A DNA stretch of 35,574 nt, from positions 1-35,574 of the forward strand of contig JAFGMS010000139.1 of assembly GCA_016927375.1 (NCBI GenBank), read 5' to 3'. Source of the DNA: Anaerolineae bacterium. Lineage in GTDB: Bacteria > Chloroflexota > Anaerolineae > Aggregatilineales > UBA3940. The position numbers were made by a program, and so were the translations under genes. Shown one piece after another: positions 2,819 to 29,132 of this stretch. The notes under the pieces were generated by a model that was not told where the DNA came from, did not search any database, and saw only the letters and a list, made by a program, of their open reading frames with translations. Every line of letters begins with the position of its first letter. Positions within the stretch are counted from its first letter, which is position 1.

Positions 2819-3155
2819 TCAGGGGTGGTTGTTGGGATTATCGGTTGCCAACCCCTCGGAGGACGCCATGGCTGACAGCCGATTGTCGGCACAGACGAAG
2901 ACCAACCAGGGCAGATAATCCCCCGGCAATAAGCACAGTGTTGCTTTCGAGTGCTGATGCAAGCTGCACCGAGTCGTATGCGCGGAGAGAATGCTTCTCT
3001 AACAGGTCCTTGGCGCGTGCTGCGATCTGGTGGCTGAAACCAATCCCTATATAGTGGATATCGGCATAACGATCCAATACCTGGCGTATGGCATGGGCAT
3101 GGGCTGCAGAGAGATGTCCTTCACGAGCCCTGCGATTCAAACCACAGATTTCAGT
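2819..3155 (-). pseudogene. PIN-domain (VapC-like) toxin remnant, N-terminally truncated and frameshifted
   Basis: Minus strand: LTEICGLNRRAREGHLS...RAKDLLEKHSLRAYDSVQLASALE, then in another frame WLVFVCADNRLSAMASSEGLATDNPNNHP* (typical PIN C-terminus). The N-terminal DTSALVK-type part is absent and replaced by a repeat copy. Confidence 0.75.
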
Positions 3156-3366
3156 TAGCACCCGGAAATAACATGGACAAGCCGGCCAAGCCCGGTTGGC
3201 GCTCACAACCTTGCCCCTGAGAAACGTGGCAGCTCGATACGCGATCTGCGGCCCCTCTCCGCCCGGCGGCACAGAGGGGGACGTCGCCGGCATAGCTATC
3301 GGCCACCGTTGCAGGGGGTGAGGTTCAGTGCCTCTCATCTATCAACCACGCTATTCTCACGTGCTG
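3156..3366 (-). repeat. Copy A of a ~208-bp structured dispersed repeat
   Basis: Reverse complement aligns over its whole length with 27839-28046, about 87% identity by hand with small indels. Confidence 0.88.
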
Positions 3367-3620
3367 CCCCACATTTATCTCAATTGTTAAGGTACACCAC
3401 CCAGATTACCATTACCTCGCTTGCTCCCGACATCAGCTACTGACCTTCAATCGTCATCACTAGCATCGAAAATGAGGTACATTGGGTGTGAGATGTCGTT
3501 TGTGATGAAGATCTCTCCGTGTTACGCGTGGGACCGTGCCGTTACTCTTGTTACCCGGCCTTTGTTTGTTGGAGAATGATAAAACCCTTCCCAACATGCT
3601 GGACCACAACAAATACCTGG

Positions 3621-13411: not shown

Positions 13412-13487
13412 AAGTCACCTCGGTAAGCTGTCAGCTCTTAGCTTTTAGCTGTTAGTCTTTAAGCTGTGAACGGTAAACTCACCGTTT

Positions 13488-15698: not shown

Positions 15699-15840
15699 AA
15701 GAGACGCTTCGGTTGAGCCAGCTTAACACGGGGATGCTCTCAATTACTCGCAGGTTTCCTTCTTTAGCCATGGATTGATAGCCCTGTCTGGACACAGAAC
15801 GTCCACCTGGGCATTCCTACGCAGAGCGTAGGAACGAGGA

Positions 15841-16113
15841 AAGACATCGCGATGTTCTTTTAAGACGCCGCGATGTTTCTTTAGGACATCACCATGTTCC
15901 TCTATAACATCACGATGTTTCTTCATAACATGGCAATGTTTCTTCATAACATGGCAATGTTTCTTCATAACATGGCAATGTTTCTTCATAACATGGCAAT
16001 GTTTCTTTAAGACATCACCATGTTCCTCTATAACATGGCAATGTTTCTCCATAACATCGTGATGTTTCTTTGAGACACCGCCATGTTCCTTCAGGAGGCC
16101 ACGATGTTTCTCT
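15841..16113. repeat. 13-unit, 21-bp tandem array of short dyads
   Basis: Consensus ATAACATSRCRATGTTTCTTC with AACAT-N4-ATGTT dyad core; 13 contiguous 21-bp units without indels, four of them (15925-16008) nearly identical. Confidence 0.92.
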
Positions 16114-16229
16114 GGGGCGCCGGTTCAGTCGAGGATTGTGACCGGTCTCCTGATGCCATCACCGCCCTCGTTCCTTGACCCAACATGCCTTTTTATCCCA
16201 ACCAGCCGCTCAGTGCGCCTATCAGCCCC

Positions 16230-21878: not shown

Positions 21879-22052
21879 CGTAACTACTCAGTCTTAGCTG
21901 TTGGCTCTTAGCTTTTAGCTTTTAGCTTTTCAAGCTTCGATCTGTGCTTGTAAACTCAGGCTGGATACTCGTCACGTCTCACGTTTTACATATTTACCTT
22001 TTGTGCATCGCTTATGGCCACAGTAGAGAGCACCAGATAGCTGAGTAGTTAC
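21879..22052. repeat. Segment bounded by inverted CGTAACTACTCAG / CTGAGTAGTTAC ends, containing TTAGCTT heptamer repeats
   Basis: CGTAACTACTCAG at 21879-21891, GATAGCTGAGTAGTTAC at 22036-22052; TTAGCTT x3 at 21908-21928. Confidence 0.55.
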
Positions 22053-27762: not shown

Positions 27763-27838
27763 GGTAAACCCATGAGACAGTCCGCTCAACAGGGATAAAG
27801 GGCTGTCGCAGTCTATTTGCTTGTGCTAAGATCGGCTG

Positions 27839-28046
27839 TAGCATGCGAGGATAGCGTGGTTGATAGGTGAGCGGCGCTGAACCTCGCCCCCTGCAGCGGT
27901 GGCTGATAGCTATGTCGGCGATGTCCTCCTCTCCGCCGGGCGGAGAGGAGACGCAGATCGTGTATCGAGCTGCTACGCTCCTCAGGGTGAGGTTGTGAGA
28001 GCCAAACCGGACTTGGCCGGCTTGTCCCCGTTATTTCCGGGTGCTA
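27839..28046 (+). repeat. Copy B of a ~208-bp structured dispersed repeat
   Basis: Aligns end to end with the reverse complement of 3156-3366; bounded by TAGCA...TGCTA. Confidence 0.88.
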
Positions 28047-28082
28047 GGTTACCAGCATGTATCCATTTTTGTGGAGAAACCG

Positions 28083-29132
28083 ATGGACTCCATAGATTTA
28101 CGCAGCGATACTGTCACCTGGCCGACGCCTGAGATGCGCGAAGCCATGTATCAAGCCGAGGTCGGTGATGATGTCTACGGGGAAGACCCGACCATCAACC
28201 GCTTAGAGGAGCTGGCTGCCAGGCGTTTGGGCAAGGAGGCAGCCCTGTTTGTCTCAAGCGGCACACAGGGCAACCTGATCGCCGTCCTGGCTCACTGCAA
28301 CCGCGGTGATGAGATGATCGTCGGTCAGAGTTCCCACACCTTCATCAACGAGGTCGCAGGAGCATCGGCATTAGGAGGCGTCTCATCCTATACCATCCCG
28401 ATACAGCAGGAAGGCACCCTTTCCCTCGCTGACATCCGCGCAGCCATCCGCGACCCGCGCGACATCCATTATCCTACGACCAGGCTGGTTTGCCTTGAGA
28501 ATACCAATGGCGCGGTCGGTGGCATCCCGCTCAGCATCCAATACACACGCTCGGTAGGAGAGCTATGCAGCGAGTGCGACCTGAAACTACACATCGATGG
28601 CGCGCGTATCTGGAACGCGGCAGCCGCATTTGGCTGTGATGTTAAGGATTTGGCCGCCCCGGCAGACAGCATCAGCTTCTGCTTATCGAAGGGATTGTGC
28701 GCACCTGCGGGGGCAATCCTGTGCGGGTCATGTGATTTCATCGAGCGCAGCCGCCGTCTTCGCAAGATGCTGGGAGGCGGCATGCGCCAGATCGGTATCC
28801 TGGCCGCGGCCGGGATTATCGCCATAGAGAAAATGACCAAGAGGCTGCAAACAGATCACAGCAATGCCAAACGTCTGGCCGAGGGTCTAAGCGACATCCC
28901 AGGTATTCACCTCAACATGCAGCAGGTACAAACCAACATGATCTTCTTCCGGCTCGACGAGTCAAGATCCATCGATGCAGCACAGATGACCGCAGTCCTG
29001 GCGCGAGAACACAACGTCAGGCTGGACGTCACCGGGCCACGCAGCTTCCGCGCTGTAACACATTACTGGATTACCGCAGAGCGCATAGAGACGGCTCTCG
29101 CAGCTATCCGGCAAGTCTGGGAACATGCCTGA
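28083..29132 (+). CDS. ltaE: Low-specificity L-threonine aldolase
   Basis: MDSIDLRSDTVTWPTPEMREAMYQAEVGDDVYGEDPTINRLEE, LHIDGARIWNAAAAFG, SFCLSKGLCAPAGAILCG. Confidence 0.95.
   Translation: MDSIDLRSDTVTWPTPEMREAMYQAEVGDDVYGEDPTINRLEELAARRLGKEAALFVSSGTQGNLIAVLAHCNRGDEMIVGQSSHTFINEVAGASALGGVSSYTIPIQQEGTLSLADIRAAIRDPRDIHYPTTRLVCLENTNGAVGGIPLSIQYTRSVGELCSECDLKLHIDGARIWNAAAAFGCDVKDLAAPADSISFCLSKGLCAPAGAILCGSCDFIERSRRLRKMLGGGMRQIGILAAAGIIAIEKMTKRLQTDHSNAKRLAEGLSDIPGIHLNMQQVQTNMIFFRLDESRSIDAAQMTAVLAREHNVRLDVTGPRSFRAVTHYWITAERIETALAAIRQVWEHA

Follow-up and report, generated by a model that had tools for sequence, protein, structure and literature searches.

A palindromic repeat upstream of ltaE in an Anaerolineae bacterium is very probably a worn copy of a non-coding MITE family that shares its ends with an IS1-like insertion sequence

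Bacterial MITEs have been reviewed (PMC10969869), with MITEAba12 as one example (PMC6382973), and the small palindromic repeats of prokaryotes are likewise well described (PMC3733652). We analysed a structured repeat in a 35,574-nucleotide stretch of DNA from an Anaerolineae bacterium (the whole stretch is called the window hereafter), where it lies upstream of a threonine aldolase gene, ltaE. The repeat resembles bacterial MITEs in being short, non-coding, multi-copy, mostly intergenic and foldable, as well as in sharing its terminal inverted repeats (TIRs) with an insertion sequence (IS) and in having a target-site duplication of fixed length. We conclude with high confidence that this 208-base block is a worn copy of a non-coding MITE without a transposase of its own, probably moved by an IS1-like IS.

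A sequence-only reading of the window had aligned positions 27839-28046 end to end with the reverse complement of 3156-3366, and this match was confirmed (86% over 211 nt, E 1.6e-64; complementarity by arm of 86%, 89% and 93%). All the structural features that it described are present, from the hairpin and the long-range arms around it to the TAGCA...TGCTA ends: the inner palindrome CTCCTCTCCGCC-G-GGCGGAGAGGAG occupies 27926..27950, and the enclosing pairing, visible in both sequence and fold, is formed by a 5' arm, AACCTCGCCCCCTG, at 27880..27893 and a 3' arm, CAGGGTGAGGTT, at 27983..27994, all on the + strand. Alignment of 38-40 copies, each with 60 nt of flank, placed the true boundaries 2 nt further out on both sides (27837-28048), and yielded a family consensus of 213 bp with the ends GGTAGCA...TGCTACC. 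The ltaE copy (MITE copy 1, ~212 bp, 27837..28048, + strand), delimited as a whole element by the aligned copies and by 8-bp target-site duplications in sister copies, has eroded ends, TGTAGCA...TGCTAGG, in which the outer two bases are off consensus on both sides. Its left TIR, TGTAGCATGCGAGGATAGCGTGG (27837..27859, + strand), matches the TIR pattern with 2 mismatches, and its right TIR, eroded at the outer end, was placed by copy alignment at 28026..28048 on the - strand.

MITE copy 2 (3154..3368, - strand) was identified through its match to copy 1, and both of its TIRs were detected. A 166-aa ORF at 2838-3338 (-) starts within this second copy and has a weak, sub-cut-off PIN-domain match (profile 44-108 of 120); at this position a PIN gene may have lost its original start or had it replaced. 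Elsewhere in the window, we observed a tandem array of 21-nt units with 68-84% identity (15823-16116), together with 7-nt-periodic AGCTTTT/AGCTGTT short repeats (13426-13460 and 21882-21944).

Only two copies had been counted from the window; the host genome, a draft of 5.04 Mb in 547 contigs that is 87% complete, holds about 50 of the same family in addition to shorter families with the same ends. With one copy as a BLAST query, 40 copies were scored at 83-89% identity to the query, and an internal 30-nt pattern gave 47 matches. In all, the draft contains at least 49 related copies, and the 49 that were analysed each match the consensus at 160 positions or more. The element is too short for a transposase gene, and its copies vary by indels. 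Neighbouring ORFs, which were called mechanically, are unrelated to one another and show no orientation bias (++ 11, -- 12, -+ 9, +- 2).

The TIRs of the family are ~23 bp long and imperfect (GGTAGCAYSCGRRAATARCGTGG), with a left end of GGTAGCACGCGAGAATAGCGTGG and a right end that reads GGTAGCACCCGGAAATAACGTGG as its reverse complement; the TIR pattern gave 62+62 = 124 matches in the host genome, while a reversed-pattern control gave 0. Target-site duplications of exactly 8 bp with at most one mismatch, for example GGCTATTT, CATATTAA, GCCATATG and CAGATTTC, flank 12 of 38 copies, compared to 0.9% in controls that paired the flanks of different copies, and the same 38 copies showed no excess of flank identity at lengths of 3-7 and 9-12. 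Around unrelated cores of 83-200 bp in the host genome, the same TIRs are also present, several with perfect 8-bp duplications, and two further genomes of the order have elements with unrelated cores and perfect 8-bp duplications too. Relatives of ~294 bp carry two hairpins of the inner-palindrome type and ~81 extra bases, and the 213-bp form may have been derived from this longer form by the loss of one hairpin.

These ends and duplications bear on a different origin, in which the repeat would be a REP- or BIME-like palindrome that owes its mobility not to a DDE enzyme but to a tyrosine transposase associated with REP sequences or to a single-stranded DNA mechanism of the IS200/605 type. The copies are small, palindromic, mostly intergenic and numerous, as such a repeat would be; however, those mechanisms are not known to leave an 8-bp target-site duplication or to use matched terminal inverted repeats, and both are present here, as is an IS of the DDE type whose ends are the same, making this origin highly improbable.

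Several copies of the MITE lie inside another dispersed repeat (GAAATCTGTGGTTTGAATCC...GATATATCCCAGCGCTTTGGC, beside GGATTACACGGATAAAGCC), seen in the right flanks of L013, L017, L023, L038, L039 and L040 and, as its reverse complement, in the left flanks of L028 and L029; this repeat is perhaps a preferred target. A second palindromic repeat, like TGTCATTCCCGCGAAAGCGGGAATCCATACGCC, occurs near MITE-family copies at L050, L058, L051 and L080. No copy of the element was found in phages or plasmids, and viral contigs gave no exact match to the ends. Within the genome collection, exact TIR matches were confined to the Anaerolineae MAG Zod_Metabat.387, which is probably the same as G001, a genome of the same genus (5998-6020 in L081 and G001:C214).

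A search for the TIRs covered 154 genomes of the order, and in G001 two TIRs lie 1216 bp apart around a single ORF for a 369-aa DDE transposase (locus L103; IS termini GGTAGGACCCGGAAATAACGTGG/...AGCGTGG). The best curated match of this ORF is NCBIfam transpos_IS1 at 34.6 bits (cut-off 100), followed by transpos_IS6 at 29.5 bits (cut-off 125), and ten relatives of the transposase scored 27-55 bits against transpos_IS1, likewise short of the family cut-off. In an alignment of 13 transposases, Cys residues of the N-terminal part are invariant, as are D120 and D179, and E259 is nearly so; D120, D179 and E259 probably represent the expected DDE catalytic positions.

Relatives of the IS are present in 22 of 396 genomes of the class, with termini that also read GGTAGCAC... 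and, in intact copies, for example, GGTAGCACTCCAGTAAAGCGTGG. Perfect 8-bp duplications were observed at the relatives L137, L139, L143, L159, L160 and L163, those of intact IS copies being CTATGGCA, ATAGAGGG, ATCCTTGT, ATTTTTGT, GACAAAGT and AGGTGCGT; the L103 copy has no visible duplication. Since intact IS copies have ends of the GGTAGCACTCCAGTAAAGCGTGG type and perfect 8-bp duplications, the IS and the MITE agree in both their ends and the length of their duplications. In the 87%-complete draft of the host genome, no intact IS was found, and the draft contains a decayed IS remnant with 83-87% identity at C138:159-601 as well as, at C440:14-81, the left end of an IS (87%) that is truncated where the contig stops; directly beside lone TIRs of the host genome, where the IS was also sought, there are other genes only. 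A 386-bp element in G072, which retains both IS ends, has lost most of the middle and is flanked by an 8-bp duplication with one mismatch, is likely an intermediate between IS and MITE. G006 has a family with ends of this kind around a different core (L105, L113; contigs C7, C96, C186, C285, C427), and five contigs there break ~100 nt from a TIR, suggesting that a multi-copy IS was lost in the assembly of that genome.

A further possibility is that the repeat is a cis-regulatory structured RNA under selection as RNA, whether as a riboswitch-like leader for ltaE or as a whole family of leaders, and its position in a 5' leader, a fold predicted to be strong on the + strand (z -3.9) and a two-sided T-A to C-G difference between the window copies all point that way. 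The consensus folds strongly on both strands (-119 and -108 kcal/mol), as a palindromic element should. When computed from all copies, the consensus structure had poor energies (alifold -11 with 42 copies and -24 with 36), so covariation was tested on a fixed consensus fold: 36 copies contained 9 compensated cells versus 9.56 in shuffles (318 of 500 shuffles had at least as many), the excess of G.T expected under selection for a + strand RNA was absent (122 G.T cells versus 157 A.C), and paired and unpaired columns had diverged alike (0.081 and 0.089), the mean divergence from the consensus being 8.3%. The T-A/C-G change, which the sequence-only reading called compensatory, is real; as one event in a background of copies without excess covariation, it means little, and the further copies show no compensation above that of shuffled alignments. 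The reading had recognised no matching family, in agreement with our Rfam search, which returned nothing at the gathering threshold and, when relaxed, gave SAH as the best sub-threshold match (E 0.52, on the opposite strand). Together with the unbiased orientation of flanking genes (++ 11, -- 12) and a G001 copy of the same gene that lacks the element, these data largely refute the structured-RNA explanation at the level of the family; a conserved RNA is not supported, and we consider it extremely unlikely.

The gene downstream of copy 1 is an ltaE-like threonine aldolase gene (28083..29132, + strand; Beta_elim_lyase, Pfam PF01212, E 7.9e-109), whose orthologue in G001 is 83% identical. The G001 site is empty, with joined flanks that align over 1010 nt without the element (alignment with L130), and both genomes have a terminator-like palindrome and the motif GCTTGTGCTAAGAT upstream of ltaE. 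In the window, TGCTAAGAT (27824..27832, + strand), conserved in the L130 alignment, is the probable extended -10 of ltaE; a scan for consensus promoters at ltaE found nothing. The element starts 4 nt past TAAGAT (27827-27832) and stops 34 nt short of the ATG at 28083, close to the spacing reported earlier, leaving the ribosome-binding site GGAG (28073-28076) outside. Should TGCTAAGAT act as an extended -10, the transcript would begin near the first bases of the element, which would make up most of the 5'UTR; because the insertion directly follows this conserved putative promoter motif, the ltaE mRNA probably carries the element as its 5'UTR. No target-site duplication is recognisable around this copy (4/8 mismatches), which, in a family whose copies are ~8% from the consensus, is old and eroded.

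Its location invites an extension of the MITE explanation, adding to it and not replacing it, in which the ltaE copy, having inserted at the transcription start, was co-opted as a 5'UTR that now alters mRNA stability or translation, with the family as a whole not selected as RNA. The expected presence of the element in the mRNA and its stable fold are consistent with this, whereas the copy shows no sign of special constraint, the ribosome-binding site lies beyond it, ltaE of G001 is without it and the promoter is itself putative, the consensus scan having found none. We regard co-option as unlikely; if true, it would mean that a mobile palindrome had turned leader and brought new post-transcriptional control to ltaE.

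Three origins had been proposed from the sequence. The TIRs, the 8-bp target-site duplications, the high copy number, the empty site in G001 and the same-ended IS, whose own family makes 8-bp duplications, bear out the first, a mobile element; the second, a cis-regulatory RNA, is not supported by copies that lie beside unrelated genes in either orientation and do not covary beyond shuffles; and of the third, a co-opted leader, a weak form may stand, in which the element lies between a promoter-like motif and the ribosome-binding site and is probably transcribed. Under the MITE explanation, the DDE transposase of an IS1-like 1.2-kb IS with the same ends would have recognised the terminal repeats and moved the MITE, duplicating 8 bp of target. 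The ltaE copy would have inserted downstream of the conserved promoter-like motif and upstream of the ribosome-binding site, where it probably forms most of the 5'UTR, and its hairpins would be DNA palindromes handed down from the founder element. Matching ends and duplication length suggest that the MITE was moved in trans by a transposase of this IS lineage. A striking structured repeat is in this way explained as a transposon family, and the case illustrates how a 'compensatory' change between two copies can mimic a conserved RNA, though 36 copies lack covariation.

Compared with known systems, the family is ordinary in kind and appears to be undescribed: literature searches on the TIR sequence and on MITEs of this bacterial class found nothing relevant, and, unlike those of described MITEs, the ends, cores and partner IS are absent from the literature searched. 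It also differs from bacterial MITEs in having several unrelated cores, 83-295 bp long in the host genome, under one set of ends. The partner resembles the IS1 family in its transposase, with an N-terminal, zinc-binding-like Cys pattern, an HTH region and putative DDE residues, in ends that begin with GGT and in 8-bp duplications (the family criterion is 8-9 bp), and its distant plasmid relatives are annotated as 'IS1 transposase' or 'IS1 family transposase'. Classical IS1 has a two-frame insA/insB arrangement; in contrast, intact copies of the partner have a single ORF of ~350-386 aa, with no overlapping insA/insB frames and frameshift, and their transposases score 27-55 bits against a cut-off of 100, the IS6 family model also being a weak match. 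The likely mobiliser is a divergent IS1-like group of this class that curated models miss at their cut-offs.
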